DNA of 64,000 bases from assembly GCA_948144175.1 (NCBI GenBank), contig CANXME010002103.1, forward strand, positions 416,484-480,483. Direction: 5' to 3'. Source of the stretch: Closterium sp. NIES-65. Taxonomy: Eukaryota > Streptophyta > Zygnematophyceae > Desmidiales > Closteriaceae. The notes under the pieces are model-generated. The model was not told where the DNA came from. It saw only the letters and a program-made list of their open reading frames with translations, and made no database searches. Each line of letters opens with the position of its first letter. Position 1 is the stretch's first letter. This document shows positions 5,692 to 60,949 of the stretch, one piece after another. Position numbers and translations under genes: made by a program.

Positions 5692-8600
5692 TCAAGAAGT
5701 GAGCAAGTGAGGCCAAGTAGGCACAAGACCTAGCATAGTACAGAAGCGCTGATGATCACCAGGCAGAAGTGCCTTGGTAAAGATATCAGCAGTGTTGGCC
5801 TCAGAGGCCACATAAACAAGGCGCAGCTGACCACGCTCCTGCAGCTCACGAGCAAGGAAGTAGTGAAGAGCAATGTGCTTTGTTCTGTGCTCCAGTCTGT
5901 GCTCCCGACACAAGGCCAGCATGGCCTTGTTGTCTACGTACAGAGCTGGAGGATAACGAGGCGGCTCTCCGAGGTCAGTCAGCAGGTAGGTGAGCCAGCG
6001 TAGCTCCTGTGCAGCCATCGCCCCCGCGTAGATCTCAGCCTCACAGCTGGAGCCGAGAACAGAAGAGGAGCGGGTAGACCGCCACAAAACAGAGCCGGAG
6101 CCAAGGCTGAAGGTGTAACCCTGTGACGACCGCTGCGTAGCCTGGTCGTCAGCCCAAGAAGCGTCTGCGTGACCTGTGAGGACCACTCGATGTCGCCCTC
6201 CAAGCACTAGCCCCATGCCTGACGTACTGCACAAGTAGCGCAACACCCTCTTCGCTGCAGCCATGTGCTCTGGTCGGTGTCTCCCAGGAGCAACATAGCG
6301 TGCCAAGATGCTAAGAGGGTATGCAAGGTCAGGTCGTGTGCAGGTCATCAGGTACATGAGGCAGCCAACAAGCTCTGGGTACGGGCCACTCGGCTCTACC
6401 GACTCATCCGAAGGCAGAGCTGAGAGCGAGTGGCGAGTAGACAGAGGAGTGGCCTTAGGCGAGGAGTACGTCAAGTCGAAGCGCTGAAGGACCTGCTGCA
6501 CCATGTGTGACTGAGTCAGGGTAATGGTGCGCTGTGCTCTGTCCCGGGTGATCTGCAAGCCAAGGTAGCTGCGCAGTTTACCCAGGTCTGTGCACGTGTG
6601 TCTCTTTTGCAGCTCGGACTTCACGTGGGCGAGTCCAGCAGTGTCAGCAGTAGCAAAGACCAAGTCGTCAACGTACACGAGGATGTAGAACGGCGGCAAA
6701 GAGGTGTCGGTGCGCAGAATCAGCGACGGGTCGGCAGTAGAAGGAGCAAGCCCAAGAGCCGCAACTGTAGTCCTCAGTGTGTCGTGCCACTCACGGGGCG
6801 CCTGGCGGAGACCGTAGTCTGGCCGCCGGAGGCTCCACTGGGTACCAGGAGGAAACGACCAAGTGAAGCCAGGTGGGCGGCGCAGCCAGATCTCCTCGTG
6901 CAGGCTGCCCTGCAGGAAAGCTGTGCTGAAGTCAAGAGAGTGAAGCTCCTTGTCGCGCTGAGCGGCTATGTGCAGCAGCACCCGAAGAGTGGTCATCTTC
7001 GGGGTGGGAGAGAAGGTCTGAAAGTAGTCAACTCCCTGCCGCTAACTGAAGCCTCGAGCCACGTAACGCGCCTTGAAGACAGGCGGAGAACCCGGCAGCC
7101 GCTTCACCCTGAAAATCCACATGCCACTGACGATGTTCGCCCCAGGTGGGGGAACCTCGTCGACGTAGGTGCTTGTGGACTTCCAGGAAGCCATATCTGC
7201 GTCCATGGCTGACTGCCACTAAGAGGAGTAGGGACCCTCGATCGCCACAACGTACGATCGAGGAGTCGGGATGTCTGGTGCATCCGGGTCTCCCTCAGGG
7301 GCAATCAGCGTGGACACGAGATGAGGCAAAGCAGCAGCAAAACACTGGAACTCCTCCTGCCTATCCTCAAGGACGTCCGTGCGAAGAGCACACTCACCCC
7401 CGACGGACGGAGGACAGACAGACTCAGATTTAGCAACAAGACCAGTAGCGTAGTCTAGACGACAGCGAGCAGCAAAGTCGACAAGCTCAGCCACTAAGGC
7501 AGACGCAGCAGTGGTTTCAAAGGAAGGGTCAGTGACAACAGTAGCCAGGAGACGCGTGACAGTAGGACTGGCAGCACGAAGAGAGTCAGACTCCGGTTCA
7601 GCAAGAACAGGAAGAGAGGACTCAGGAGGAGACGGCAACGGGACACGGAGAGGAGCAGTGGAAGGACGCATTGCCATCTGGTGTGTGCCTGGGACTGCAG
7701 GAGGACGCTGACGCAGAGCACGACGATTGGTGCGAGCAGCACGAACAGGCGACGCAGGACGAGACGCAGGCTCAGGATGCTCCGCAAGACCTCTAGTAGG
7801 ACCACTGTAGGGAGAAGGAGCAGGTAGTGGGGAGGCGGGCTGTAATTGTGACTATGGCTGGACAGGCTGCGGACACCCTAAGGGAGGAGCAAGACTAGTA
7901 GAAGGCGGGAGACCAAGAACCTGCTCAAGGAGCGGAACGAAGTACGGCCGCGGCCGCGCAGTGCCTCCAAAACTAGCAGGGACAGCACCAGTACCCCCAG
8001 CGGCAGCACCAGCACCAGCAGTACCTCCAGCTCCAACAGCGCCAGCTCCAGCACCCTCAGAAGCACAAGCTAGCAGAACCACCAGCGCCAACACCCCCTG
8101 CAACTCCAGCTCCAGCAAGACCGCCAGTTCCTGTACCGCCAGCGGCTCCAGCAGTACCTCCAGCAGGACTAACTCCAGCAGCCGCAGCAGCACCCCCAGA
8201 CCCAGCAGCTCTAGCACCGCTAGTATGAGTACCTCCGGGACCAGCAGCAACAGTAGTACCTCCAGCTCTAGCAGCATGGCTCCAGCGCCGGGCAAACCAC
8301 TCGCGCAGCTCCTGTGGAGAGAGTGGCTCCCGCCTCGACGAAGCACCGCGAGCGGCCACACGAGCAGACCCAGCACCCCCAGGCTCCGCACCCCCAGGCT
8401 CAGCACCCTTAGACTCAGCACCCCCAGGCTCAGCACCCCTGGACTCACCAACCCCAAGCTCCGCACTCTCAGGTCCAGCACCTCCAAACCCGGCACCCGC
8501 AGGCTCAGCATCTCTAACAGCACCAGAGTCAACAGCTACCTCGACAGGCTCGACTGCATCTACCTGGGACACACCTGACGGGGCAGGACCCTGAGGGGGG

Positions 8601-24880: not shown

Positions 24881-25042
24881 AAACGAGAGGAGCACGTAGG
24901 GTGAGGAGAGAGGAGCACGCATGGTGAGGAGAGAGGAGCACGCGCGGGGAGGCAAGAGGAGCACGTAGGGTGAGGAGAGAGGAGCACGCGTGGGGAGGCG
25001 AGAGGAGCATGCAGGGTGAGGAGAGAGGAGCACGCGCGGGGA
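24880..25042. repeat. GGAGCACGCGCGGGGAGG minisatellite, left remnant
   Basis: Units of about 25 bp (GAGGAGCACGCG, GGTGAGGAGAGA). The same array continues at 39003-39720. The two parts join if 25043-39002 and one GA are removed. Confidence 0.85.
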
Positions 25043-25056
25043 CATCACAATCTTCC
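25043..25056 (+). repeat. Left terminal inverted repeat
   Basis: CATCACAATCTTCC, preceded by GA. It pairs with 38989-39002 with one mismatch. Confidence 0.65.
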
Positions 25057-25573
25057 GGTCTGGATTTCAGCTGGTTTCCAGCCAGAGTTCAAGACTCGTG
25101 GCGGAAATCAGACTGAAAACCAGGGTCGATTTCCGCCTGAACACATGGCACTAACGTGACTGGTTTTCTCGTGGATTGCAGGCCATATCATAGGATGGGT
25201 TCAGGGGTTCGGTTCAGCCTGCGCTCCAGCTGGTAACTGACCGAAATGGGTATGGTGGTAACGCCACATTCCGCGTCGGAATCGCGCCTCGGGGCCAATA
25301 AATGTAATAATATACACCATTCGTTTTTTGTATAGCAGTTTCTATTAAATCTATGCTCGATATAAATATTTGTATTGTGCTGATTTCTCAATTCGTTTTA
25401 CAATTGTTTTTTAATTGTTTTGCATATAATAATTCAGCTGTTATTACTGTTGCTGTTGCTGTTATAATTGTTCTGCCCATATAATTTTTAATATCAGAAC
25501 ACAGAAACTAGTATTGCCCATATTACTGCTTTAAGGATCGGTGCATTTATTACCATTCTTATTAACCAGAAAT
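25057..25573. other. Left subterminal region of the transposon
   Basis: It holds inverted and direct copies of a GGAAATCAG/TTCAGGCGG-like motif (about 25065-25130), then AT-rich sequence. No gene is seen. Subterminal motif clusters are typical transposase-binding regions in CACTA-like elements; a binding role here is inference. Confidence 0.5.
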
Positions 25574-28500
25574 TCAAACAGGCAATAGTGCAGGGTAATC
25601 CGACGCATCAATACGGACCCTGTTTTCGAACACCCACGCATTTGTTGTCGCATCATGCGTGACGCCCAGCACATTCACAGAGTGCTCCACCCAACGTCGA
25701 ACCCTGATGCACGTTAGCTCGAACAACCTGTGGTTTTCACGCTGGTCTGTGCCCAGCTTGCCATCCCCTGCTGCCTCCAACAGTGGGTTCTCGAGCTGAA
25801 CACAGGAACAAGGCGAAACAGCATTAACATGTTGATATTGAAACCTAACCGTTGGATATAATGAAAAAAACACTTACTGAAAACAAGGCGAAAGCCACCA
25901 TGCGTGTCTTCCACGCTGTGACATCGACGCGGCGCCTTCGAAACGCCTTGCTCATGGCGATCGCAAACAATTTCGTGGAGAATGGGCACTGCGTGATCTG
26001 GTCAACATGCCATTTCAGCCCCCACTCATCTGCCAGAGCATGTGACAGACGAGGGGACAGAGAAGGGGACAGTGCATGTGATAGAGGAGGTGAGAGCATG
26101 GGAAGGGACAGCGTAGGAGGGGAGAGCATGGGAGGAGACAGAGCAGGAGGGGAGAGCAAGGGAGGGGACAGAGTAGGAGGGGAGAGCAAGGGAAGGACAG
26201 ATCAGGAGGTAAAAGCACGGGATGGGACAGAGCAGGAGGGGAGAGCACGGGAGTGGTCAGAGCAGGAGGGGACAGAGCATGTGACAGAGGAGGGGACAGA
26301 GCATGTGACAGAGGAGGGGACAGAATGTGATAGAGGAGGGGACAGAATGCAACAGAGGAGGGGACAGAATGTGACAGAGGAGGGGACAGAGCATGTGACA
26401 GAGGAGGGGACAGAGCATGTGACAGAAGGAAGGGAGAGAGCATGTCATAGAGGAGGGGAGAGAGCATGTGACAGAGGAGGGGGGGAGAGAGCATGTAACA
26501 GAGGAGGGGGGGAGAGAGCATGTGACAGAGGAGGGGGGGAGAGAGCATGTGACAGAGGAGGGGGGGAGAGAGCATGTGACAGAGGAGGGGGGGAGAGAGC
26601 ATGTGACAGAGGAGGGGGAGAGAGAGCACGTGACAGAGGAGGGGGGGAGAGAGCATGTGACAGAGGAGGGGGGGAGAGAGCATGTGACAGAGGAGGGGGG
26701 GAGAGAGCATGTGACAGAGGAGGGGGGGAGAGAGCAAGGGTTAGGAGCTCACCAGTCATGTTGTCCCGGACCAGTTCGGCATCGTTCCGATACACCGCCG
26801 GACGATCCAACTCCGCCGGGAGGGACATCACCTTCCCCTTGTTTTTCTCCCGCCCCAATGCAGTTAGAACCAATCGACGGAGTATTTTGCCAATTGCACA
26901 CCGGGTATTGCTGCATGCTGTATAGAATGCCCCCTTTGTTGTTGGGCATTGTTGTTTCCACAGCAGTTGCAAGTGGGGCATGGTATCAGGGGACAGATAA
27001 GTAGATAACCCAGCCATCGCCTCTTCACTCGAAGGATACATCTAGATGTGAAGAGCGTCGTTCAGCCAGAAGAACTCGGTGATGACACTCCGGCACTTCA
27101 CTTGCCAGGAAAAAAATGTATGAGTAGATGGAAGGATGGGGCAACACAAAATGTACGTGGTGGAGACCACTACGGGGCATGGCATGGTGAGTGCAGAGGA
27201 GCAGCGAGACAAGGCAGGAAGGGAGAGCACTGGAGGGGACAGAGCAGGAGAGGAGCGCACAGGAAGGGACAGAGCAGGAGTGGCAAATCAACGGGGAACA
27301 GAGCTGGTGGGAAGACAGCATGAGGGAATAGAGCATGAGAGGAAAGGGCAGCAAGGTTTTATACGCACCTTCCAGTCTCCAGCATCGACGATCACCATTT
27401 CCAGAGCAATTTGTCCGGCACTCCGACTTGGAGGGCGAGGAACGCCTGTTGTTGCGTCGCTGCCCTGCGACGCAAGTCCTTAAGCAGGAACCGCGACTCC
27501 TTGAGCCCTGAGGCTCTCAAACTATTGGAGCATCTCCTTCCTAAGCGCCGCAAACTCCACTCGTCATACCCACTGCGTCTGCGCCACCCTGGTTGATACG
27601 GCAGCCAAAGCCGTGGGCCCTGGAGGCGGCGTCCTTACAGTAGTGGTACCCCTGGACCTGAAAACTCCAGTAGATGCTGCTGCTGCTCCCACCCTCCCTC
27701 CAGTCGATGCCGCTGCTCCTCCCACCCTCCCTCCAGTCGATGCCGCTGCTCCTCCCACCCTCCCTCCGGTCGATGCCGCTGCTCCTCCCACCCTCCCTCC
27801 TGTCGATGCCGCTGCTCCTCCCACCCTCCCTCCAGTCGATGCCGCTGCTTCTCCCACCCTCCCTCCAGTCGATGCCGCTGCTCCTCCCACCCTCCCTCCA
27901 GTCGATGCCGCTGCTCCTCCCACCCTCCCTCCAGTCGATGCCGCTGCTGCTCCCACCCTCTCTCCAGTCGATGCCGCTGCTCCTCCCACCCTCCCTCCAG
28001 TCGATGCCGTTGCTCCTCCCACCCTCCCTCTAGTCGATGCCGCTGCTCCTCCCACCCTCCCTCCAGTTGATGCCGCTGCAGCTCCCACCCACCCTCCAGT
28101 TGATGCCGCTGCAGCTCCCACCCTCCCTCCAGTTGATGCCGCTGCTCCTCCCACCCTCCCTCCAGTTGATGCCGCTGCTGCTCCCACCCTCCCTCCAGTT
28201 GATGCCGCTGTTGCTCCCACCCTCCATCCAGTCGATGCTGCTGCTCCTCCGACCCTCCCTCTAGTCGATGCCGCTGCTGCTCCCACCCTCCCTTCAGTCA
28301 ATGCCGCTGCTGCTCCTCCCACCCTCACCCCAGTTGATGCTGCTGCTGATCCCACCCTCCCTCCCGTTGACGCTGCTGCTGCTCCCACCCTCACCCCAGT
28401 TGATGCTGCTGCTGCTCCCACCCTCCCTCCCGTTGACGCTGCTCCTCCTACCCTTGCAACAGTCATACCCGCAAGAGCTGCTGCTGCTCCCACTTGCATC

Positions 28501-30188
28501 GCACTAGTACTTGCCCGCAGGGTGACCTGTAGCTGGGGCAGCTTCCCCCCTCCCCCCCCAAGGTTGAATCGCTCGATGGTGGTTGGCGGACCCACACCAG
28601 AATTCTTCACCGCTGATTGGTGTAGGGTGAGAGCAAGATGGGACAGGTCAGGATGGGATAGCGCATGAGGGGACAGGTCAGGACGGTTTAGGGAAGCTAG
28701 TTGGGAATATTGATGGGACAACGGGAGTATTGACAGAGACGGATGGGAAAAAGCAAGGCGGGTCAGAACGAAGGGTTACAGGGCTGGAGGGCAAAAAGTG
28801 GATGACTTACGCTTTTTGGGCTTAGGTTTTGTCTTTGTCTTCCCCTCCGTTGCTTCACCTTTACCCTTTGGAAGGGGTTTAGTGCTGGCCTTCTTACTCC
28901 TGCGCTTCGTGGGTGGCTTCGCCGCCGCCAATGCCCCTTTCACGGTCTGCCCTCCTTGTTTATCCTTTGCTTCTCCGCCACGCCCGTTACCGCACTGTTG
29001 CGTATCATCCGGTGTGGCCCCCAGAATCATAAACCGCCCTTTCTTCACCACTCGTGCAGCTTCTTCATCCTCATCCAGCGCCGACCCGCGGCTGAGTGCT
29101 TGTACGCGTGTCCACCGCCCATTAGTTCTCTCCTCTGCACTAAAATTGGAGTAATCGGACAAGTCTTCGCCCACATTGTCGCCATCTGCCTGGACCCCAT
29201 CTGCCTCCTCTCCTTCCGCCTGCTCGCCTTCCGCCTCCTCTCCAGCCCCATCTACAACCCCTACGCTTTCCCCCTCTTCGCCTTCCCCCTCTTCGCCTTC
29301 CCCCTCTTCGCCTTCCCCCTCTTCGCCTCCCCCCTCCTCGCCTTCCCCCTCCTCGCCTTCCCCCTCTTCGCCTTCCCCCTCCTTGCCTTCCCCCTCTTCG
29401 CCTTCCCCCTCCTCGCCTTCCCCCTCTTCGCCTTCCCCCTCCTCGCCTTCCCCCTCTTCGCCTTCCCCCTCCTCGCCTTCCCCCTCTTCGCCATCCCACT
29501 CCCCACCTTCCGCCCCTTCGCCTTCCGCCTCCTCGCCAACAGCTCCTACGCCTTCCGCCTCTCCGCCTTCCGCCCCTTCACCTTCCCCCTTCTCGCCTTC
29601 CCCATCCTTGCCTTCGTCCGCTTCGCCTTCGTCCGCTTTGCCTTCGTCCGCTTCGCCTTCGTCCGCTTCCCCTTGGTCCGCTTCGCCTTCGTCCGCGTCG
29701 CCTTCGTGCGCTTCCCTTTCGTCCACTTCGCCTTCGTCCGATTCGCCTTCGCCCGCTTCGTCTTCGTCCGATTCGCCTTCGTCCGCTTCGCCGTCGTCCG
29801 CTTCCCCTTCGTCCGCTTCCCCTTCGTCCACTTCCCCTTCATCCGCTTCGCCTCCGTCCGCTTCGCCTATGTCCGCTTCACCAACCACCTTCTCGCCATA
29901 CGTCTCGTCGCGATATGAACCGTCATCATTCGCCACACCAAACACCGCCTGTTCACCGTGCGCCACATTATCGACCGCATAGCCATTCGGATCGGCGGAC
30001 GTTTCCATACCGTCGTCATTCTCACCTAGAATGTCCGCGGTGAAGCCATTTGGGAGCTTGCGCCGTTCCTCGGTGGCGCATTATGCTTTCTTACCACCTC
30101 TCTTTCGACGCCCACGGCCTTTTTTTGTGTTCGCCTGCTCTCCCGCGTGCTCACCCTTATGGCCTTGGGAGATGGTTGGTTGCAACAT
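25574..30188 (-). CDS. Unrecognised multi-exon gene carried by the giant transposon
   Basis: I do not recognise the protein. Splice sites define exons 30188-30095, 30025-28811, 28612 to an unresolved end, about 27460-27369, 27041-26753, 26029-25878 and 25795-25574 (TGA). Five introns have GT-AG borders and keep frame: 69, 198, ~327, 723 and 82 nt. The N-terminal exons encode a Lys/Arg stretch, then a long acidic repeat (GEADE, GEEGE units), then a Lys-rich tail. The last three exons encode ordinary globular-looking sequence with motifs [15 protein letters not shown] and [18 protein letters not shown]. The middle (28450-27460) is a 33-bp minisatellite, and its exon structure is unresolved. The gene is transcribed away from the transposase and ends 530 bp from the left terminal repeat, which suggests an element-encoded partner protein. 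Confidence 0.5.
25796..25877 (-). other. Intron of the unrecognised gene, phase 0
   Basis: It begins GTAAGTG and ends TGTTCAG on the minus strand. Removing it joins the motifs ALFS and LENPLL in frame. Confidence 0.65.
26030..26752 (-). repeat. ~26-bp minisatellite filling an intron of the unrecognised gene
   Basis: More than 20 units of CATGTGACAGAGGAGG-like sequence with varying G-runs lie between a GTGAGCTCC donor (26752) and a CTCTGGCAG acceptor. Splicing keeps the frame (DNMT joined to DEWGLK). Long frames on both strands across it are artefacts. Confidence 0.75.
27042..27368 (-). other. Probable intron with short purine-rich repeats
   Basis: Donor GTGCGTAT at 27368 and acceptor ending CATCTAG at 27042, phase 0. 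It contains imperfect GGACAGAGCAGGAG units (27200-27300). An alternative acceptor at 27101 would extend the exon but introduces an in-frame TAG at 27042-27044. Confidence 0.5.
27665..28450. repeat. 33-bp minisatellite (11-codon unit)
   Basis: About 23 units of GATGCCGCTGCTCCTCCCAC plus CCTCCCTCCAGTC. Because 33 is divisible by three, frames stay open on both strands: [11 protein letters not shown] on plus, [11 protein letters not shown] on minus. Only the minus frame agrees with the gene's splice junction at 28612, but the block may equally be intronic. Confidence 0.88.
28613..28810 (-). other. Intron of the unrecognised gene
   Basis: Donor GTAAGTCATCC after the Lys-rich segment and acceptor CACCAATCAG. 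198 nt. Splicing preserves frame across a codon. Confidence 0.6.
29240..29880. repeat. 15-bp tandem array within the acidic-repeat exon
   Basis: Units of CTTCGCCTTCCCCCT (29270-29490) and CTTCGCCTTCGTCCG variants (29600-29860). On the minus strand they encode GEEGE and GEADE pentapeptides inside a frame that continues on both sides into non-repetitive protein. All other frames are also open by composition. Confidence 0.85.
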
Positions 30189-30250
30189 TGCTGAGATGCA
30201 AAGGGCTGTAAGTGAAGGCGTTTGTTAGTAGTCAAAGTTTTGAGCAAGTA

Positions 30251-30715
30251 CTACAAGCTCGAAACATCGCTTATAAACAGATCATGGTGCACCGCTCTTC
30301 GCACCTCGACGCTTGGTAGCCAGGTATCGGAGTAGCCGTCGAACAAGATTCGTGCGCTACGCTCGTATCGTGCCCGGCGTGACAGCATCCCCACCACCAC
30401 GGCTCGCAGATCGACGAATACGAGGGACGTGGGAGACATAAAGCCGCCACGAGAGACACGTACAGCACCGTCGGAAGGTTGAAAATCGGTGGTGAGGCAA
30501 GTTACATGCATGAGACAGAGGCGCGATAGCCATCTGCAGAAAACGAAGGCGACCAAAGAGGGTTGCACTGGACATCCTGCACTGGACGTGCGCACGGTAA
30601 GACTAAAAGAGAGAATCACCCATGCTGCATATCTGCTGGTGGGGTCCGTCATGTCGCGACTCGAGACGCTGTTCCTTTCACAAACGAGGCGGCGCTTGTG
30701 ATTGTAAGGACGCAT
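30251..30715 (-). CDS. Possible upstream exon or small gene, unrecognised
   Basis: A 154-codon frame starts ATG at 30715 and stops TAG at 30251. Its C-terminal half (motifs RGGFMSPTSLVFVDLRAVV, YSDTWLPSVEVRRAVHHDLF) has ordinary protein-like composition. Downstream sequence holds a TACTAAC branch-point-like motif and a CTTACAG acceptor before 30188, so it may be an upstream exon of the minus-strand gene. I could not find a junction that keeps frame. No known family. Confidence 0.3.
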   Translation of the reverse strand: MRPYNHKRRLVCERNSVSSRDMTDPTSRYAAWVILSFSLTVRTSSAGCPVQPSLVAFVFCRWLSRLCLMHVTCLTTDFQPSDGAVRVSRGGFMSPTSLVFVDLRAVVVGMLSRRARYERSARILFDGYSDTWLPSVEVRRAVHHDLFISDVSSL

Positions 30716-31558
30716 GTCTTATGGCAAAAATTGTCTAAGGTCGACCCTATTACCGCGTTCTACAGTGGCAAAACGTCTCTTAAATACATCTGACCGTGCA
30801 CAACCACTCTAGAAGTGCAAAATTTGGCCAAACTACGACCTCAAGGCCACTCGCCCTAAGTGCATACACATGTTCTTGTTAATGGCTCGCTTTCTGGTGA
30901 GTGTCGCTGTAAAAAAAGGAAAGGCCTCCATTGGTCCCTGAAATCTACAATGACCGGTGATGACGGTCGTAGATAGGGGGGTCGCGTTGAAGATCAGTAA
31001 CAACCCTAAATCTAGATGTACAAAATGGTAGGCTTATATAGATTACATTACAGAAGGTCTCTCTCAAAGATGCCAAACTGAAAGCCACAGATTTAGTCAA
31101 GTGTTGGAAATTGTACGTGTGTGTTTGTTTTAGGATAGTGATAGCTATACATTACATTAATACTGCTGAATCATGCACAAATATGCACATGGGATTGGTT
31201 TATGTCTCCAAACGTGCTCATATTTTGATGTCTTCTAGGGCTCATAAACACTTTGGTTGAGGTATAAATCTTCATTCAAGTGTCTCTACTATTTCCCCTA
31301 GTCCTCCTCTATTGTTTTGTAAAGAAAGGCTTATTTCCCTGAATTTTACAAGAACCGCCGTAACAAGCTATACCAACGAAGCTTCTAGCATTCAACCTCT
31401 CATACTCTGGCCATCACAGTTTGTGTCATCTCCACCTTTTGTGTTTATAATCAATGGAACGATGTGCTGCCTCTGTGACCTAGTAAGGTGCCAGGCTGTC
31501 AACATAGTTTTGGTTGTTTCACAGGCCATCATCATATATACCCATAAACAACGCAAGC
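30716..31558. other. Unique spacer without a supported gene
   Basis: Moderately AT-rich, between the divergent genes. A few short frames with no domain. It may contain promoter sequence for either gene. Confidence 0.5.
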
Positions 31559-32236
31559 GTGATTGGATGGGCCTGATCTCTTAACCAACTCACTCCCCAT
31601 ATGCAATGAGCTCCTCATACAAACCTCAGAGCGTTCAGAGAAGCGGAACACAGTGGCGTGAAGGCAAGCGTCAAGGCAAGTGTCATGGTTGAAAAAACAG
31701 CCCCATTGCACTTGATGCACCGGCTTGAGTTACAATGCTAGAGTGATTGGATGGGCCTGATATCTTAACCAACTCTCTCCCCATATGCAATGAGCTCCTC
31801 ATACCAATCTCAGAGCCGTCAGAGAAGCGGAACACAGTGGCGTGAAGGCAAGCGTCAAGGCATGTGTCATGGTTGAAAAAACAGCCCCATTGCACTTGAT
31901 GCACCGGCTTGAGTTACAATGCTAGAGTGATTGGATGGGCCTGATATCTTAACCAACTCTCTCCCCATATGCCATGAGCTCCTCACACCAATCTCAGAGC
32001 CGTCAGAGAAGCAGAACACAGTGGCGTGAAGGCAAGCGTCAAGGCATGTGTCATGGTTGAAAAAACAGCCGCATTGCACTTGATGCACCGGCTTGAGTTA
32101 CAATGCTAGAGTGATTGGATGGGCCTGATATCTTAACCAACTCTCTCCCCATATGCAGTGAGCTCCTCATACCAATCTCAGAGCTTTCAGAGAAGCGGAA
32201 CACAGTGACGTGAAGGAAAGCGTCAAGGCATGTTCA
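31559..32236. repeat. 184-bp tandem array, about 4 units
   Basis: GTGATTGGATGGGCCTGAT starts units at 31559, 31743, 31927 and 32111. The units are highly similar. It lies between the start regions of the transposase and the divergent gene. Confidence 0.93.
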
Positions 32237-32244
32237 CAAAAGCT

Positions 32245-33130
32245 GTCAGGCAGAAAAACTGAGACATGCATCAAGGCCTTCTTGAGATGGGATTGGTCTG
32301 ATACTTGGAACCTGAGACAATATGATACCTTTGAACCATCCGTACAAGTCTCAGACTAATTGGACAACCAGAGCACACTCTGTTCAAAAAACCAGTGAGC
32401 ACATGGGGTGAATTCACTCAGGCAGAAAAACTGAGACATGCATCAAGGCCTTCCTGAGCTGGGATTGGTATGATTCTTGGAGCCTGAGACAATATGATAC
32501 CTTTGAACCATCCCTACAAGTCTCAGACTGATTGGACAACCAGAGCACACTCTGTTCACAAAACCAGTGAGCACATGGGGTGAATTCACTCAGGCAGAAA
32601 AACTGAGACATGCATCAAGGCCTTCCTGAGCTGGGATTGGTATGATTCTTGGAACCTGAGACAATATGATACCTTTGAACCATCCGTACAAGTCTCAGAC
32701 TGATTGGACAACCAGAGCACACTCTGTTCACAAAACCAGTGAGCACATGGGGTGAATTCACTCATGCAGAAAAACTGAGACATGCATCAAGGCCTTCTTG
32801 AGATGGGATTGGTCTGATTCTTGGAACCTGAGACAATATGATACCTTTGATCCATCCATACAAGTCTCAGACTGATTGGACAACCAGAGCACACTCTGTT
32901 CACAAAACCAGTGAGCACATGGGGTGAATTCACTCAGGCAGAAAAACGGAGACATGCATCAAGGTCTTCCTGAGGTGGGATTGGTCTGATTTTTGGTACC
33001 TGAGACCATATTATGCCTTTGAACCATCCCTACATGTTTTAGACTGATCGGAAAACAAGAGCACACTCTGTTTCGAAAACCAGTGAGCACTACCGGTGAA
33101 TTCAGTCAAGTTATAAAAATGATACAAGCA
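32245..33130. repeat. 172-bp tandem array, about 5 units
   Basis: CAGGCAGAAAAACTGAGACA recurs with 172-bp spacing (about 32248, 32420, 32592, 32764, 32936), with a degenerate trailing unit to 33130. The sequence is unrelated to the preceding 184-bp array, apart from short shared words. Confidence 0.93.
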
Positions 33131-33579
33131 ACAAGGCATTCCTAAGCTGGGATTGGTCTGATCCCTCTTGTAGAATGGTTATCTTTTGCTTGAGCGTACA
33201 CTTCTCCAATCCATTTCGTAATAATATAGTACCCTTTCTGGTTTGGACATTTTTTTTGTGCATGATTTATACCAAGATAATGTTTAGACTAAGTTCACTG
33301 CACTACACTGTTCCTCAACCTTTCGCCTCCACCTCGACAACACTCTAGTATCAGATACGTGTCCTAGATCTCGGCATCGCGTTTGCGCTCGTTTTTCAAA
33401 ACTTTGCCAGTTCAAACTTCTGTCGCATCACCTCTGGTTTTTGTTTCACCTTTTCTACTACGTACTGATCTATCCACCACTACTGGCAACGCCTTGTACA
33501 AAGCTCCATAACTCCAGTCATATCGTCAATCCTCTCGCCTAATCTCTGACACATAGCGATTTGGTCACCACCTGTAGTC
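33131..33579 (+). promoter_or_regulatory. Upstream region of the transposase gene
   Basis: 450 bp without an open frame between the 172-bp array and the transposase ATG. It should contain the 5' untranslated region and core promoter; no specific element is claimed. Confidence 0.3.
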
Positions 33580-36500
33580 ATGACACGCCATGAGTGGATT
33601 TCGTGCCGGTTTTGCACCAACCAGTTTAAGGACGCTAAGGCTTTTGGACAGCACAAGGGGAGGTCCAGCTGTCGCTTAAAGTATGCCGCTGGAACTGCTA
33701 CAACTGAAACGGTGGCTGAGCAATATGTCTTCATGGTGGCGGATGCTCCGCCTCCGACCAACACCCATACCAAGCCACGTCTAGAGCCTAGTGACGCGGA
33801 TGAGCCAGCGACCTCGGCTATTGGATCTGACGCAAGCAGCTCTGACACCTCTGCTTGCGGGTCTAGCCCGCAACCGCTTTCATTCGAAGATCTGAATGGC
33901 GAGGACAACACTGCGACCAGCAATGCTTCAGCACCTCCGATTTCCGTTGTTGCACAGTCCCAGGCCCCATCCCCCACGGATCCTTTAGTATTGCGCTTCA
34001 TTCATCTGGTCCGCCTCGCCAATGGGAAGATGAGCATGGCGGAAGTCGATATTAATGGGATACTGCAGCTGTTGATGTATCCGGAGCTCGTGGAGCTGGT
34101 GTTGGCGAAGTTCAAAAACTGCCGGGAGCTCAAGCGCTTTGAAATCGAAGAGCTTGCTGGCCTGGGCCGTGGGTGGAGCGTGGCAACCTTCGAAGTGGAT
34201 GGCTTTGAAGAACAGATGCTATTTTTCCGAGATCCGACGCAGGTGACTTCCCCCTTACATGCCCATCTCGATGTTGCTCCGCTCCTCTGCTGTTCAGCTC
34301 CTCTACATTTCCAATCTCCTACTGTTCCAATCCTCTCCTGTTCTGCTCCTCTCTGTCAGAATATTATCTTATTGTTCTAGCCTGTAGTGGGGTGCTCTAT
34401 AGCAAGTACAACCCTTCTAGGGTTTGCTATTTGTATCCTCATTCTTGCTAGTTCAATCCTCTTTCTTTCTTCTAATTTTGACACTCTCCTGTTCCGCTCC
34501 TCTGCTGTTCCGCTCCTCTCCTGTTCCGCTCCTCTCCTGTTCCGCTCCTCTCCTGTTCCGCTCCTCTCCTGTTCCGCTCCTCTCCTGTTCCGCTCCTCTC
34601 CTGTTCCGCTCCTCTGCTGTTCCGCTCCTCTGCTGTTCCGCTCCTCCCCTGTTCCGCTCCTCTGCTCTTCCACTCCTCTACTGTTCCGCTCCTCTGCTGT
34701 TCCGCTCCTTTGCTGTTCCACTCCTCTGCTATTCGGGACCTCTGCTGCTCATCTATTCTTCCGTTCCGCCCCTATGCACCATGTAATCGCAGGCCTTGGC
34801 GGACATGTTTGGAGACCCAGCCAATGCACCCGGCTTTGTGCTGAAGCCACGCATGGACACTGACCCTGAAACCGGCCAGCGACGCTACTCCACCCCAGAG
34901 ACGGGCACATGGTGGCATAATGCCCAGGTATGCCGCATCTGCGCACCTGCAACTAACACCTCATGACTTCGTTATTCACCTGTTCTTGCCTAAGTGCCTT
35001 GTTGATTCCATGCCTGTCATATTTCCTCACTTGCAAGTCACCTCTCTGTATCTTGTCTAGTCAAACATTACCCTTGTAGCACACTGTCACCTCATACTTG
35101 CGTCACTCACATGCTCTTGATTCCATGCCTTGTGTATTCCAGCCCTATACTCCATTCTCACACACACCTCTCACCTCACAATCCTATTACTCGCCTGCTA
35201 TTGCCTAAACTCGTGTAATCTAGGCCTGTCCTTCCATCTCAACCCAACCTCATCCTTGCGTTACTCAATTGCTTTCGCCTGCTTTTTGGTTCGAGGCTGA
35301 CAATCCCCCTCTATTCGACCCTATATGCAATTGCAGGATCATGTGGGAGAAGGTGAGGTAGTTGCGGCCATTATGCTCTACAGCGACGTGACGCACCTGA
35401 GTGAAAACGGGCGCAAATTGGCTTGGCCTGTTATGATGACATTGGGGAACATCCGGCAGGGCAAGCGCTGGGCATCGTCTGGGCACTGTCTGCTCGGAAC
35501 TCTCCCTATCCCCCCCACTACCATGTCACCTGGTCAGAAAACTGCCCTTTTCCAACAAGCCGCATTGATCATGCTTGAAAAGCTCCTTGCGGGGCGAGAA
35601 AGGTGATCATTGTTTAATAATTAGTGTTACACTAAAATGTCTACCCACTGGCTCCCACTTTGCCATTCCGGCGCCCAATTATGACGTGGTAACTGAAGCG
35701 TGTCCCCCCCTTGCCATGTTTGCCATTCCTGCAAAACCCATTGCTCTTGTTTTTTTGCTATATATATATATTTCTTAACAAAGCAGATTCCCCATGTATC
35801 AGCGTGTGATTATGATGACCAAACCCCTTTCGTTCCACAACATGCATTTCCATGACAGTGGCTTCTTGCTCAAGGACCCCAATGGCGTGGAGCATGTGGT
35901 CAGACCCATGCTTTACACATGGGTCTGTGATAACCCCGAAAGTGGGAAAGTAACCTGCACCTTATCTGGTGGCACTGCTCGTCCTTGCAGTATCTGCTAT
36001 GCTGAGAAGGTAAGACACTATTCCGACCGCCTTACTTGCGCCCCCACTACCGTACTTGGCATTCTTGCGCCCCCGCTGCCATAGGATTCACCTTTGCACC
36101 CCCACAGCCATGGCGCTCTCATTTGCACCGCCACAACTATGGCTGATATCCTTGCACCCCCTTTCAGGAGCATCTTGACTGTGTCACTGCTGAGAACACG
36201 CCTAGGATAGTCGACCAACAACGCTGGATCATGGAGCATGCAGGGGACAAGTTGGGAATTGAAAAGACGGCTGCGGCCCAGTTTTCCACATTCGGCATTG
36301 AGGTATGTGCATACATGCTTAATTATATTAGCGTTCTTGAAACCATCTACCTTCTAAAATCGACTATGTTGAGCGATTTGTTTGCAGTGCGCACTCTGGC
36401 ACTGGGATGTGCCTGGCGCGCCATGGGCGAATCCGTACCAAGCGATCATGCCTGACATAATGCACCAGTCCGACCTGGGCATTCTACACCACATCGTGGC

Positions 36501-38655
36501 TGCGGTTCGTGCGTCATACGGCCGGAGCCTCGCCTTGTTCGACGCGTAAGTCCCCTTCCAAATCTGCTTCTCCTATCAGAATCCCATCCACATGACTTAT
36601 TCTGTCACTCCATTTCCCACCATGCTTTTTTCGCTCGCCCCATCCCCATCACCCCTGCTGCTTCACTCACTCCCCTGCCACATACATCCCCCATCTGCCA
36701 ATCACCCTTGCTGTTTTTCGCTCGCCCCATCCCCATCACCCCTGCTGCTTCACTCACTCCCCTGCCACATACATCCCCCATCTGCCAATCACCCTTGCTG
36801 TTTTTCGCTCGCCCCATCCCCATCACCCCTGCTGCTTCACTCACTCCCTTGCCACATCCATCCCCCATCTGCCTATCACCCTTGCTGTTTTTTTCTCGCC
36901 CCATCCCCATCACCCCTGCTGCTTCACTCACTCCCTTGCCACATCCATCCCCCATCTGCCAATCACCCTTGCTGTTTTTCGCTCGCCCCATCCCCATCAC
37001 CCCTGCTGCTTCACTCACTCCCCTGCCACATCTATCCCCCATCTGCCAATCACCCTTGCTGTTCCTTTGTCTGCCCGCCTTATCTTTCGCCCATGCACTC
37101 CCATTTTTAGGCGGCTAGCTCAAATCCACGCTGATACGAGGATGACTAACGTCCGTTTTCTGTCAGCCAACTACTTCACGTCCTCTGCCCGAATTACGGC
37201 ATACGAGCATCGTGCGGTGCGCATGGTACGTGTTTGTTTAGGCCTATGGAGCTTACGTTTTGTTGCTGATGCCTTATTGTGGACAATGCATACACAAGAT
37301 TTGCACTAACCCATACCCTCCCCAGGTGCTCCTCTTCATCGTCTCAGACACGCTGGAGGAGAAGTGCTTGAGCGCAATCCGAGCGTACCTAGATTGGTAT
37401 CTATTCTGCGCCAAGCAACCCGGCCACACGGAGAGAGATCTGTCGACTCTAGAGGGTTTGACTGATAGGTACCATTCCATTTCATGATTAACTGTTCTTT
37501 TCTGTTTATGTGCTGTAAAAACACCCGAAGGATCCTGAACCCATTACTCAAAAGTGTGATCAATAACACCTTACACCCAATGTTGCTGGTGCTTTGTAAA
37601 TGCACACCTTGCCAAGTGCTGTCTATAATTGATCCCACTCCAACAGGCTGGTCAAAGAGCTGCAGGATGCCTTTCCTGAGCAAAAATCAGAGTGGTGTTT
37701 GATCAAAACACACCTCATGACACACTACCCTGGAGCGATAAGGAGAGCAGGCCACGTGTCTGAGTACTCATCAGCGATGTTTGAACATCTTCACGGGCCG
37801 TTGGTGAAGCCAATCTATCGACGTACCAACAAACGCGGCGTCGAGGCCCAAATCATGGAACACCATGAGAAAAGGGCGGTATACCAAACTCTGGACACAC
37901 TCGAGTGCGCCCACGAGACATCAATGCTGCAAGTCCTCATTTATTGACACAACATATGCAGCACCATTCTGCAATGGTTAACACACACAATATTGGATAC
38001 ATGCAGGCAACAAACCTTGGCACACTGGTAGTTACCCAAGACGCGTACGCGGTGTTTGTCAAGCCTCCAGCTGAGCCAACCAAGATGAACGAGTTCTACA
38101 ACAAGTGGGCTGCCCAACAGCCAATCGCACATCAGTACTTCGAAACGGCGTTGGCCGAGTATGGCTTGAGCGCCGAAAAGGTCATGGTAAGCTTTTACTC
38201 GTGCAGGAATCGAATATTACTACCGTACAACAATTTCTCACACCATTCTTGTACATGTATACTTTCAGGCTCATCCAACAATGGCAATCCCGGCTGATGC
38301 AGGTACTTAGTCATCCAAAGAAGCCCATTTTGTGAGGGCTACACCGGACAGCTACAAAAGACCTTGGTTCTCTAACGTTGCAATTTCGTGCGAGGGAGGT
38401 GGCGTGGAATACGCTATGTTGATGCTCCTGTTCCATTGCAAGAGGCGCAACGTACGACACAACCTTGCATACGTCAGGTACTACATGACGTCAGGCACAG
38501 ACGCAACAACAGGGTGCGTGCGTCTGCGATGGCCCGCAGACGAGAATGCATTTCACATAATTCCAATCGCGTCTATCTTGCGCCACGTGCATGTGGTGAA
38601 GATGTATGATCCGGAAGAGCCGGATGTGTACATGATGAACAAATACATAGTGTAA
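33580..38655 (+). CDS. Plavaka-type transposase, 11 exons, one internal TAG
   Basis: Exons: 33580-34242, 34793-34927, 35337-35602, 35787-36009, 36168-36302, 36388-36545, 37111-37225, 37326-37468, 37647-37932, 38007-38186, 38269-38655. All ten introns are GT-AG and the joined frame is 897 codons including TAA. A C2HC finger (C9, C12, H25, C31) opens the protein. Plavaka-like blocks follow: DLADMFG-like/WWHNAQ (about 222-266), LYSDVTHLSENGRKLAWPV with candidate Asp283, PMLYTWVCDNPES (about 400), MPDIMHQSDLGILHHI with Asp497, EYSSAMFEHLHGP with Glu652/Glu659, and the LAYVRYY/FHIIPIASI C-terminus. It would cut and paste element DNA in the nucleus. The single defect is TAG at 38308-38310 (codon ~782) in the last exon. 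The family assignment is from recalled family motifs, not a search. Confidence 0.83.
34354..34483 (+). mobile_element. Solo LTR, TRIM/copia family
   Basis: 130 bp, TGTCAGAATATT to TTTTGACA, flanked by CTCTC (34349-34353 and 34484-34488). It is close in sequence to 42857-42985 and related to the TRIM LTRs (shared GTGGGGTGCTCTATAGC block). It was left by LTR-LTR recombination after insertion into the intron. Confidence 0.88.
34490..34745. repeat. 15-16-bp minisatellite in intron 1
   Basis: Repeats of GTTCCGCTCCTCTCCT with G/C variants. Diverged copies flank the solo LTR (34265-34350), so the LTR landed inside a pre-existing array. Confidence 0.9.
36600..37060. repeat. ~86-bp tandem repeat in a transposase intron
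   Basis: About five units with the landmark TTTTCGCTCGCCCCATCCCC, between exon 6 (ends 36545) and exon 7 (starts 37111). It has open frames on both strands but lies between good splice sites, so it is intronic. Confidence 0.88.
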
Positions 38656-38988
38656 TCTGTAGTTACAACTAATAATTGCATTCTTGGATTGTAGAAACAA
38701 ATAATATCGTCTACGTGTTGTTCCGGAAATCATCCATATTTAAATTGCCAGTACACAAAACGAGGCTTACTGCAATGTCGAATTAAAACGAACCGCTGAA
38801 TTTCCGAACCGCTATTTTGGGAAGCAATGTGCAATCGCGGGTCGGACAAACTGGAAAACAGTCTGGGAACAGGCGGGAGAATTTCGGGAGGGGCGAAATT
38901 GAGTGCCTGAAATTTCCGTTGGTGTTGCAGCTGAGTCGCGCCTGAAATTGCTGTTCGACAAATTGCTGAACCCAACCACAAAAAGGCA
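38656..38988. other. Right subterminal region of the transposon
   Basis: 3' flank of the transposase. It contains several TTTCAG/AATTCAG-like words in the reverse complement (about 38800-38960) that resemble the left subterminal region. No gene. Confidence 0.5.
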
Positions 38989-39002
38989 GGAACATTGTGA
39001 TG
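38989..39002 (-). repeat. Right terminal inverted repeat
   Basis: GGAACATTGTGATG, followed by GA. It pairs with 25043-25056. Confidence 0.65.
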
Positions 39003-39725
39003 GAGGCAAGAGGAGCCCGCAAGGTGAGGAGAGAGGAGCACGCAAGGTGAGGAGAGAGGAGCACGCGCAGGGAAGAGAGAGGAGCACGCAAGGTGAGGAG
39101 AGAGGGGCACGCGCGGGGAGGCGATAGGAGCACGCAAGGTGAGGAGAGAGGAGCACGCGCGGGGAGGCAAGAGGAGCACGGAGGGTGAGGAGAGAGGAGC
39201 ACGCGCGGGGAGGCGAGAGAAGCAAGCAAGGTGAGGAGGGAGGAGCACGGGCGGGGAGGCGATAGGAGCACGCAAGGCGTGGAGAGAGGCGCACGCGCGG
39301 CGCGGTGCGGTCACGCCGAAAGGTGAGGAGAGAGGAGCAAGCGCGGGGAGGCGAGTGGAGCACGCAAGGTGAGGCGAGAAGAGGATGCGCTGGGAGGCAA
39401 GAGCCGCGCGCGGGGGGGCGAGAGGAGCTCGCGAGGGGAGGCGAGAGGAGCACGTGCGGGGAGGCGAGAGAAGCATGCGTAGGGCGGCGAGAGGAGGACG
39501 CGCGACGAGGTGAGAGGAGGCCGCGCGGGGAGGCAAGAGATTCGCGCGCTATGAAGGCGAGAGGAGCACATGCGGGATGGTGAGAGGAGGCCGCGCGGGG
39601 AGGCAAGAAAAGCGCGCGCGCGCGGAGGCGATAGGAGCCTGCGCGGGAGGCAAGAAGAGCGCGCGCGAGGTGGCGAGAGGATACAAGTGAGTTTGCTTAC
39701 AAGAAAGGAGCACGCGCAGGGAGGA
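39003..39725. repeat. GGAGCACGCGCGGGGAGG minisatellite, right part
   Basis: About 25-bp units of GAGGAGCACGCGCGGGGAGGC-type sequence. Continuation of 24880-25042. Confidence 0.88.
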
Positions 39726-42482: not shown

Positions 42483-45400
42483 CTAGCCGATTGAGACGGA
42501 GCACCGGTTGAAGGCCGGATAGTGTAGCGCCTTCGTCAGGAAGTCGGCCGGCTGGTCAGCTGTCAATATGTACTTCAGCAATAACTTCCCGCGCTCCACC
42601 ATGTGCTGCAGCCAGGCCTGTTGCCGCTCCATGTGCTTGAGGTTGCCTGTCAACCCCATGCCTTCGGCGGCCGTGATGGCCGACTTGTTGTCCACCCGAA
42701 GGACGGTCGGCTTCCCGGCATCCACCTACTGGAACTCAGTGAGGAGGAAGCGAAGACGGCGTCCCTCCATGCCCGCTTCAGTGGCCGCCACGTACCCTGA
42801 CTCAGTCAACCACAGCGTCGCGCACTTGATGCGCTGGCTCGACCAGGAGACTGTGGCATCAGAATATTATCTTATGTTCTAGCCTGTAGTGGGGTGCTCT
42901 ATAGCGAGTACAACCCTTCTAGGGTTTGCTATTTGTATCCTCATTCTTGCTAGTTCAATCCTCTTTCTTTCTTCAAACTTTGTCATGTGGCCCCTCCGTA
43001 GACAAACACGTAGCCTCCCGTGCTCGTCCTGTTCTGCTTGTCACCGGCGTCGTGGGCGTCCACGTAGCCGACCAGCTCCAACAACTCTGGTCCACCGTCA
43101 AATTCCAGGGCGGTGTTGTGGGTGTTGGAGAGGTAGGTGAGGCAGCGGTCGACCTCGCGCCAGTGCTGGTCACTCCTTACCGTGAGGCCGCTCCCCAGCT
43201 TGCTGCAGGCGAAGGCGATGTCCGGCCTCGTCGTTGTCGCCGCGAACTGCACCAAGCCGGCCTTCTGCTGGTACTCCTCCTCCTGTCGCTCCTATGCCTC
43301 CTCGTTGTCGAAGGTGAGCTCGGCGTAGGCGTCGACCGAGACCGGCGTCTTCGGAGTGCGCCTGGTCTGCTCCTCGTCAATGAAGCGCCTACGCAGCTTG
43401 TTCGCGTAGCCCTGATGGTGCAGCCACAGCTTCCCCGCCGACCTGTCGCGGACGATCTCCAGCCCGAGGTACTTCTGCACCGGCGAGATCTCGCGCAACT
43501 TGAAGGCGTCCTTCAGCAGCTCCTTTAGCTCGTTCAACATCTCGGTGCTGCTACTGGCGGCGAGGAAGTCGTTGACGTAGACCAACACCAAGCAAGCCAC
43601 TTTGTTGTCGCTGACCTTGAAGTATAGAGCCTCGTTGACCTGGCTCTTCTTCCACCCAGCGTCGACCAGCGCGTCGTTGAGCGCCTGGTACCACATCAGC
43701 GGCGACTGCTTCAGCGCGTAGAGACTCTTCAGCAGCTTACACACCCGGCCGGTCCCGTCGTTGAAGTAGTCCGGTTGGTACATGTATAGCACCCGGTTGA
43801 GCTTGCTCTGCAGGAAGGCGTTCTTCATGTTGAGTTGCATCAGATTGAGGTTGAGGATGGCGACGACGCTGAGGAAGATCCTCAGCGTGACGTAGCTGCT
43901 CACCGGCGCATACGTCTAGTCGTAGTCGGCGCCATACACCTGTGTGAAGCCCTTCATGGCCAGCCTCGCCTTCTCGCGCTCGACGGTGTCGTCGATGCGG
44001 TACTTCGTTGTCACCACCCACCGGTTCTTCATGATGTTCACTCCGGGTGGGCGTTTGACCAGCTCCCACGTGCCTATGTTGATGAGGCTACGGATCTCCT
44101 CCTGCATGGCGGCCTTCATCGCCTGGCCCTTCCAGCTAGCCAACGCCTCCTTCACCGATATCGTAGAGATGTCCCAGCGGTGCTCGGGGTTAGCGTGCAA
44201 GTCGGGGTTGAGCTCCAGCAGCTCCTCATCATCCTCAGCCTTGTCGTACACCAGGTCGTCGACATCCACATTATACACCGTGGTGAAAGCAGCGGGGACG
44301 AAGAAGTCGGGCGGCCTCCGAAGTCGGCCCGTACGCTGTAGTCCGCCCTGAAATTCCACCACATCGCTGTCGGTGGACTCCTCGACATCCCCGCCATCGC
44401 AACTGTGGTCGTCGTCGCTGCCCGCAGCATCCTGCTGCACCATGGTCGGCATCTTAGCCGACTTCTCCTCTGCAGTCGGCTCCCCTACCGACTGTCTAGT
44501 CGCTGACCACTCCGTAGTTCGCATCGCTGCTGCCTGCTCCCCTGTCGGATGCTGCCCTGCTGGTGCCTTCTTCGCCGGCTTCATCCAAGTCGGCTGCACC
44601 TCCCCTGTCGGCGTCGAATTCACACCCACGTCGACTTGCTGCTCGTCACGTCGGCCACCGGCGATGCTCTCGGCGCCGAAGGCGACGTCTCACTTCTCCC
44701 CTCATAGCCGGAGGCCGACTCCGGAGTCAGCCTAAGCAGGTCGGCCACGAGGGGAGGGGCATAAGGGGTAAGGGAGGGGGAGGGAGAGGGGATATCCTCG
44801 ACGTCCTCAGCAGCAGGCTCACCGACCTCGGTGAGCAAAGAGAGCGTCGCCGTCGAGGTGTCTGTCGGCGGGGTGGTTGGCATCCGTCCTGACGCCGGCC
44901 AGTGGTCCGACTTCCACACCTCCAGCGACATGTTCTCTTATAACATCATGTTTGACGTGGTGACCACCTGGTTGTCAGCGATGTCGAGGAGCTCCCAGCC
45001 CTTGCTCTCCTCCGACACGCCGAGATGAAGGCTCCATTTGGCCTTTGGCTTCAGCTTCCGACCACTCTGCTGCTCGGAGACCAAGAACTGCACCATGCAG
45101 CCCCACACCCGTGCCAGCGACAGGTCGAGCTTCTTCCCGGTCAGCAGCTGGTACGGCGTCGTCCCCGGTGCCAACGTCAACCTCTCAAGGCAGTTGCGGA
45201 CCCAAACGGCCTGCCGTAGAGCGAGGTGCCACCAGTGGTGCTGCACGCCCATGTGCAGCACCATCGTCCGCACTGACTCCATGACCGTCCGCATCTCTCG
45301 CTCCGCCATGCCGTTCTGCTATGGGATGTACGGGCAGGTCAGGTTGTGGACGATCCCCTTGCCGTTCACGAAGTCGGTGAACTGCTTCCCGAGAAACTCC

Positions 45401-60300: not shown

Positions 60301-60418
60301 CTAAAGCTGCTCTGCGCATCCCTTCCTCTACCCCTTCTGCTGCGGTTGCTCCTGGCAGGTATCCCATGGCTAACTCCCGCTCCAAAGCCGTCGGTTCCTC
60401 CCACTTCTTCTTCCGGTG
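57365..60418 (-). CDS. Gypsy pol: reverse transcriptase, RNase H, integrase
   Basis: One uninterrupted frame of about 1,006 codons from the first in-frame ATG at 60385, open from the TAG at 60419. RT palm motifs include GFNQIAIRGEDKRKTAF and YIDDVLIF (about 59475); RNase H follows (LYTDWSSTGMGAVL, about 59045). The integrase has an HHCC finger (HAKLGQ to CEACQRNK, about 58270-58410) and a D,D,E core (SLDLAGEL about 58215; DQGTEFQGSF about 58010; DGLTERL about 57930). The domain order RT-RH-IN identifies Ty3/gypsy. No chromodomain is recognised at the C-terminus. It ends at TAG 57365-57367. Intactness suggests recent activity. Confidence 0.88.
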   Translation of the reverse strand, partial: HRKKKWEEPTALERELAMGYLPGATAAEGVEEGMRRAALGRAIDQHSLRWLIKEMRKGAADKGGETGKRQGQGEKQAAYAAVEQGTGGKENVAALAGGKEAEQGKEWKLGTDIKEQTAEAIREVLHQHRSTFAYNLQELGRYKGRELELNLTTEIPTYQRRRRMNAEDAAICKEKCEELLAAGIIRPSESSYAAATVVAARKDITGKVLAKRMCGDFRELNKITSPDGYPMPTAEDIFDRLEGAIIFTTLDLHQGFNQIAIRGEDKRKTAFHGVDGLYEYNVMPFGIRNAPAVFQRAMDHVLKGIPAAACYIDDVLIFSSSEEQHVQDLKQTLEAITFAGLTCHPDKCKIARQTVAYLGFEVKGGRLAIQEAKVKVLENLAAPKDKSGLRALLGFLNYYRKFVPNFSRRAYILNQLLKEGRSWQWGELEETARQDLLEAVRTGTLLQIPRADAPFILYTDWSSTGMGAVLCQEIEGEERVVAFASRSCSPSEANYCSYEGEGLTAVWGITHFKVYLQGRRFTLVTDHQPLLWLMTHQELTGRNARWAIKLLGFDFEIRHRPGKTLQHAEGLSRNPPPMQPVAQLAALAQVAAIPWGQEKGKKRLGDIWEDEETLSWIKGEPLEEEGVSERARARGQHFRWFQEQLQLRTNEGWKVVPQPKERAKIMGNVHAKLGQFGITRTRQLLSTMYWWVSMGKDVAGLVASCEACQRNKARLEKERDELHSLPIRGLGYTWSLDLAGELPLSKGGKHYNLVMVEHTSKWVEARALPSKNSALIADAFEELVLTRYGACGEILTDQGTEFQGSFDELLEEMGITHRVTSRYHPQSDGLTERLIQTLKKGLRAYSESHKRSWDRDLWWVLAGYRFAKQAALRNLSPYHLLFGRDPVLPVDAPKLLSAVIEADEPNMWAELAQRRANYLKELTPAALNNLHVAQLRDARRYQQRKASGIGGKGDKVEAGQEVYLRKAKRDTLDLAVGSERWKVKEIRGSGVLVLEDIRGGLIKEHITNVARAGQGKP

Positions 60419-60949
60419 ATCCTACACCATCCCTGGTCCTGGTATTCCGTCCACCTCGATGAAACCTTGTGCGCTGGTGTATGCCACTAATGTAGGCCAT
60501 GCCCTGCGAGCTTCCCCCACCCGGTTGCACTGGTACTGCCGCGGATGATCTGGTTTTACCACTGGGGCCACCACCCTCCCTGGTTCTAAAATATCCTCTA
60601 CTATCCTGCTTTCGTCCCTCTCCACTCTTGCTAGTCTTGCCCTCAGTTCCCCGTCTGGTAAGACGTTTTGCCAGTACTGCCGCACCCTATGACAGCGTGC
60701 CCACAACTGTGCCCCATCACAGCTCACTCCTCTCCCCAGTTCTGCCTCCACCAGCTCCCTTACTGCCCTGACCGGCTCGCGTACGTCATTCCTCATATCC
60801 ACATGCTCCAGGATGTAAGCATATTCTCCATTCACTTCACTCGTCCACTTCATTATGGTGAGTAGCTTGGTCACCATCCCCTTGCGCTCGTCCTGTAAGC
60901 CTTTCCCCTTTCCGGCCCTAGAAGTACCCTGACACTCCCATCCCGCCAC
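60419..60949 (-). CDS. Gypsy pol, N-terminal spacer region before RT
   Basis: 175 codons in the same frame as pol, separated from it only by one TAG (60419-60421) inside the motif GPGMV-stop-DHRKKKW. It contains AWPTLVAYTSAQGFIEVDG. No known domain; in this element it lies between protease and RT. Either the TAG is a mutation of a sense codon or it is read through. Confidence 0.6.

Follow-up and report, generated by a model that had tools for sequence, protein, structure and literature searches.

We analysed a stretch of DNA of 64,000 nucleotides, referred to as the window, in which positions 25043-39002 are a DNA transposon of the Plavaka type with defined ends. The element carries a transposase gene on the plus strand and a second gene, here called the partner, on the minus strand. 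In our judgement (probability about 0.6), it is best explained as a CACTA-related Plavaka cut-and-paste transposon with PlavakaB-type ends, which would encode two proteins on opposite strands and whose partner would act with the transposase. In a likely streptophyte, we found a large Plavaka lineage (at least 137 transposase loci) in which relatives of this second gene, down to about 32% protein identity, recur beside diverged transposases in the same orientation. Published accounts of Plavaka elements concern chiefly fungi, and some of these elements hold captured genes; what is said here of published elements refers to the excerpts of the literature at hand.

The two genes and their recurrent pairing

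Copies were sought in an assembly of 874 Mb and 2400 contigs, the queries being 1960 bp from the start of the element and 1365 bp from its end. The comparisons used the window, stretches of 10 copies (partial for C106 and C2400) and, for C1640 and C1947, the ends alone. The transposase exons, taken from a splice model with motif inspection for exons 3, 4 and 9, are as follows.

33580..34242, plus strand: exon 1, N-terminal Cys-Cys-His-Cys motif
34793..34927, plus strand: exon 2
35337..35602, plus strand: exon 3, first D (D283)
35787..36009, plus strand: exon 4, D403 and C422-x2-C425
36168..36302, plus strand: exon 5
36388..36545, plus strand: exon 6
37111..37225, plus strand: exon 7
37326..37468, plus strand: exon 8
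37647..37932, plus strand: exon 9, H635-x3-H639 and E659
38007..38186, plus strand: exon 10
38269..38655, plus strand: exon 11, with an in-frame TAG at 38308-38310 in the window copy, open in C1244 and C2295

The original prediction spoke of a nearly intact transposase of 11 exons. The exon structure stood, with 896 codons within 33580-38655, the frame kept and all 10 introns running GT..AG; the implied integrity of the copy did not, as a single in-frame TAG occupies codon 782. A profile search with the 781 residues before this stop confirmed the predicted family. Pfam Plavaka (PF18759) was matched with E=9.4e-35 and 120.8 bits (cut-off 26.3) over profile positions 1-323 of 325, and it was the sole Pfam family above its cut-off. 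By inspection, D283, D403, C422-x2-C425, H635-x3-H639 and E659 fit the Plavaka pattern of D-D-E, C(2)C and H(3-4)H, and D283, D403 and E659 are the putative catalytic residues. Two relatives of about 50% identity (L061 and L062, compared short of the H and E) keep D283, D403, the C(2)C and the N-terminal Cys-Cys-His-Cys motif. The transposase is uninterrupted, with the same exon structure, in C1244 and C2295. Other copies carry lesions: a different stop and two unmatched splice borders in C842, single-base deletions in C1883 and C2336, and a deletion plus an altered acceptor in C106. Exons 1-9 of C2400 are free of stops in the part covered, C1819 retains nothing of the gene but the final 67 coding bases, and the stretches compared of C2320 and C1703 yielded no transposase exon.

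The partner consists of the following parts.

28811..30188, minus strand: exon A, start codon, basic N-terminus and acidic 15-bp repeats; stop at codon 36 in the window copy
27369..28612, minus strand: exon B, with the 33-bp repeats; the window copy has three in-frame stops here
26753..27101, minus strand: exon C, with conserved domain 1; the window copy has one in-frame stop here and has lost the splice acceptor
25878..26029, minus strand: exon D (splice model)
25574..25795, minus strand: exon E, conserved domain 2 and stop codon
29264..29868, minus strand: 15-bp tandem repeats encoding the acidic stretch of exon A (tandem-repeat scan)
27665..28454, minus strand: 33-bp tandem repeats encoding the 11-residue Ala/Gly/Ser/Thr repeat of exon B (tandem-repeat scan)

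A second spliced gene pointing the opposite way had also been proposed. Its five exons have consistent phases, its four introns are all GT..AG in the 10 other copies assembled, and the divergent arrangement recurs. Judged from the sequences, the divergent partner gene is genuine and belongs to the element. The predicted protein has a basic N-terminus, an acidic repeat, an 11-residue Ala/Gly/Ser/Thr repeat and a C-terminal region of about 240 residues; both repeats vary in length. The gene is open in three of the 11 copies assembled, namely C1244 (1025 codons), C2295 (1079) and C106 (1164), and in C1244 and C2295 both genes are open together. The window copy had been called autonomous, which did not hold: besides the transposase stop, its partner has in-frame stops at codons 36, 809, 823, 837 and 894 and has lost the acceptor before exon C. 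A reading of these minus-strand breaks as frameshifts was rejected, the other copies revealing stops and a lost acceptor. The periodicity of substitutions by codon position among copies failed to split coding from non-coding sequence, even in the transposase, and flagged three intervals, all in coding tandem repeats; distant relatives were compared in its place. No stretch of the viral contigs fitted six peptide patterns.

The pairing of the genes was determined by genome searches with the 240-residue region of the partner, which matched 171 places, and the exon 3-4 piece of the transposase, which matched 234; the best 150 candidates were scored. The resulting table, built from the matches listed, holds at least 96 partner and at least 137 transposase loci, one row per locus as judged. 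A listed transposase lies within 40 kb of 50 of the 96 listed partner loci, with 47 pairs divergent, three on the same strand and none convergent; about 1.2 pairings would be expected by chance under uniform placement. Nine of the 50 belong to the window's own family. Among the matches listed, 41 of the 83 distant partner loci (below 70% identity) lie near a transposase, 38 of them divergently. By identity, the 47 divergent pairs fall into nine at 95% or above, four at 50-60%, one at 44-47%, four at 40-42%, 11 at 36-39% and 18 at 35% or below.

Rates of nonsynonymous (dN) and synonymous (dS) substitution were also compared. Against the nearest other family (exons C and E 55-60% identical), exon C, at 55% identity, gave a dN of 0.35 with 62 of 78 synonymous sites changed, which is saturation, and exon E gave a dN of 0.33 with synonymous changes near saturation. 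Within the family, dN/dS over exons C-E was 0.33-0.84 in 31 of 36 pairs and 1.0-1.29 in three pairs, each involving C2336. These values fit copies decaying after insertion, as would be expected. We consider the partner to be probably a helper that the element requires, because widely differing members of the group likewise have it next to their transposase.

Ends, target sites and copies

The limits of the element in the window are given below.

25043..39002, no strand: entire Plavaka-type transposon (same two ends in copies at other sites)
25041..25042, no strand: left target-site duplication, GA (flank comparison)
39003..39004, no strand: right target-site duplication, GA (flank comparison)
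25043..25056, plus strand: left terminal inverted repeat CATCACAATCTTCC (end alignment, other copies)
38989..39002, minus strand: right terminal inverted repeat (inverted CATCACAATGTTCC), 13/14 (end alignment, other copies)

The termini read CATCACAA..TTGTGATG, with GA outside each. The near-perfect 14-bp inverted ends that had been described match at 13 of 14 positions (16 of 19 if extended to 19 bp). The flanks are, as predicted, halves of a single minisatellite of 23/46-bp units. The comparison with other copies proposed as a check found the same two ends at other sites and a multi-copy family: the 13 copies examined, the window included, occupy eight insertion sites. Identical flanks place C1883 at the window site, C1947 with C2336, C1703 with C2320, and C2295 and C1640 with C2400. 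Of these 13, 12 keep an exact left end (lost in C842) and 10 an exact right end (4 bp short in C106, without a match in C2320 and C1703). Identity to the window is mostly 94-98% in 300-bp pieces, 98-100% for C1883, and lower in the tandem repeats. The element had been called unusually large, which was not upheld: six copies with both ends, the window copy counted, measure 13.4-15.7 kb, and a CACTA element of 20.5 kb has been published (PMC2613891). About 68 kb separates the two ends of C106 (G000:C106:1535485-1603322), and this copy is therefore probably inflated by insertions.

A 2-bp duplication was found at four of the five sites with both ends intact (GA, GC, TA and TC); the three sites without both ends (C106, C842 and C2320/C1703) were excluded from the count. 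The predicted empty site was recovered for two other insertions, not for the window's own. The GC site (C1819) has an uninterrupted paralogue at C2388 with a single GC, where 232 of 238 bases are identical (97%) without gaps. The TA site (C2336) has one 66 kb past the insertion with a single TA, at 79% identity with small indels nearby. No empty allele of the window site was at hand, because the sole other contig found with that flank, C1883, holds the same insertion. The flanks of the window and C1883 are 99.6% and 99.3% identical over 1.9 kb, and by this likeness the two are one insertion seen twice, as haplotypes or a duplication.

Several minor observations concern the copies. At the C1244 junctions GCCC stands on both sides, and the duplication is perhaps longer at some sites. 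Related families with 78-79% identity at one end (C2009:1647835-1648341 and C2281:764003-764124) share the CATCACAA/TTGTGATG end. The C1819 copy sits inside an open frame that by eye resembles a subtilisin-type protease (C2388:1428553; C1819:1786866), and the genome holds many stretches similar to this frame, at 71-97% DNA identity. Much of the space separating the divergent genes is occupied by two tandem arrays.

31548..33162, no strand: tandem arrays of 184-bp and 172-bp units between both genes (tandem-repeat scan)

Both arrays were matched in seven of the nine further copies tabulated; C2336 has the first only, the second being missing, and C2320 has neither in the stretch compared.

Classification and the role of the partner

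PlavakaB elements are reported to have CATCA..TGATG ends and a 2-3 bp target duplication (Kojima 2025, PMC12730594). By sequence comparison, the ends and duplication of the present element match this published type directly: the left end was found in 12 and the right end in 10 of 13 copies, the 2-bp duplication at four of five intact sites, and the duplication is also backed by the single dinucleotide in two empty paralogous sites. With PlavakaB of Agaricomycetes it shares a Plavaka transposase, the 5'-CATCA..TGATG-3' ends, the 2-3 bp duplication and the C(2)C and H(3-4)H motifs (PMC12730594). In contrast to those fungal elements, some of which carry TET/JBP genes, it has a divergent partner without a Pfam match, a streptophyte-looking host, and both coding and non-coding internal tandem repeats. 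Elements of the KDZ (Zisupton) group have an 8-bp target duplication, and none was seen at the five sites with both ends. Could the element instead be a canonical CACTA/EnSpm? We regard this as improbable. Plavaka transposases, with their D-D-E, C(2)C and H(3-4)H motifs, are reported to be related to EnSpm and to share motifs with it (PMC12730594), but the ends are CATCACAA rather than CACTA, the duplication is 2 bp rather than 3 bp, and Plavaka alone among the Pfam families passed its cut-off.

The CACTA/EnSpm group (En/Spm, Tam1, soybean Tgmt*) resembles the present element in having two element-encoded proteins, large size and a related transposase group; there TNPD needs a second protein, TNPA, which recognises subterminal repeats (PMC2613891). 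In En/Spm a single, alternatively spliced gene yields the two proteins, whereas the present element has two genes on opposite strands. Plavaka-type elements are also known from the green lineage: for the green alga Auxenochlorella, the excerpt names EnSpm-Plavaka solely as a repeat family that may be active, and gives no gene content (PMC12633428). The giant Plavaka repeats of Amoebidium are likewise large units in which further genes accompany a Plavaka transposase; they reach up to 50 kb and hold gene clusters with many tyrosine recombinases, and a similar partner is unmentioned in the excerpt (PMC11244446). Neither the excerpts of the Plavaka literature nor the titles and abstracts searched mention a divergent partner gene; no search targeted it by name, and the searches took in neither Repbase nor subscription journals.

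We propose the following mechanism. Two proteins would be encoded on opposite strands, both starting near the middle of the element. The transposase would recognise the CATCACAA ends, cut with its D-D-E centre and join with a 2-bp stagger. The partner would act with it on the element's DNA or chromatin, as TNPA serves TNPD in En/Spm, and so may fill the TNPA role, most likely as a helper needed for transposition. The window copy would now be mobile only if other copies supplied both proteins. We give even odds to a broader proposal, that a streptophyte Plavaka lineage has long depended on an obligatory two-protein system, that the C-terminal domain of the partner belongs to no described family, and that it is an independent counterpart of TNPA outside CACTA proper.

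Several results weigh against this account. The paired loci include near-identical copies and duplicate contigs and are not independent, and the chance figure presumes uniform placement. Forty-six of the 96 partner loci have no listed transposase neighbour, or 44 after two were resolved. Four of the 46 are same-family copies, deleted or split by inserts; short transposase matches lie 13 kb from C885 and 23 kb from C2199; and both unpaired loci examined, C1155 and C1872, have a divergent transposase about 8-13 kb off at 27-54% identity. The partner is broken in eight of the 11 copies assembled (the window, C1883, C1819, C2336, C842, C2320, C1703 and C2400), by a large insertion within an exon in C842, C2320 and C1703 and by a single stop in C2400. 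No recognised DNA-binding domain or other notable family came out of the Pfam scan of the partner pieces (best E 0.07), and neither exon C nor exon E had a significant PDB match by sequence (best E 0.03). The fifth intact site, C1244, lacks a 2-bp duplication (CC/GC at the junctions). Finally, the predicted subterminal repeats, expected with a TNPA-like partner, are borderline at best: the best 8-, 9- and 10-mer counts were matched by 10, 17 and 12 of 200 shuffles, and repeat-rich internal intervals average equally high.

The broken partners would suit a functionless host gene captured by one element. We think this very unlikely, given that relatives at 32-60% identity adjoin diverged transposases in the same divergent layout and that dN is 0.33-0.35 against synonymous changes that have reached or approach saturation. 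It is scarcely credible that two elements were nested by chance, or that the ends of a composite are foreign to the genes; the large, repeat-rich element with tandem arrays between its genes would invite such a reading, but both ends, and most of the interior at about 94-98% identity, recur in the copies elsewhere in the genome. The partner could also stand outside the transposition reaction and counter host silencing, as VANC does in VANDAL elements, which we find possible but rather doubtful. It has a precedent in fungal PlavakaB elements, some of which bear TET/JBP genes with a proposed role against methylation silencing (PMC12730594), the pieces scanned show no recognised DNA-binding domain, and the recurrent pairing fits equally well. 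However, the same pieces contain no dioxygenase or other enzyme family, and pairing across very diverged families would need the same silencing to be faced by all. We favour a partner that acts with the transposase. The recurrent pairing points to a required co-factor in a transposase group whose mechanism is little studied, and the existence of copies with both genes open makes the helper idea testable. The partner would also give annotators of plant and algal genomes a new protein family to look out for, one whose genes could there be mistaken for the host's own.

Host and surrounding sequence

Six Rubisco small-subunit loci were found on five contigs. One of them, L059, scored up to 178.7 bits with plant small subunits and 123.5 bits with 1gk8, which we take to be the Chlamydomonas Rubisco small subunit. 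Because it scores higher with plants than with Chlamydomonas, the host is most likely a streptophyte; the green-lineage host of the original prediction agrees with this plant-type rbcS.

Around the element, Copia-type reverse transcriptases (RVT_2) lie at window positions 2138-3130, 5695-7041 and 43295-43915. By eye, repeat-rich blocks at about 8-12 kb and 16-21 kb and, inverted, at 52-56 kb seem alike. Pieces of a Gypsy-type retrotransposon, with gag, reverse transcriptase, RNase H and integrase domains, occupy 57368-62468 on the minus strand.

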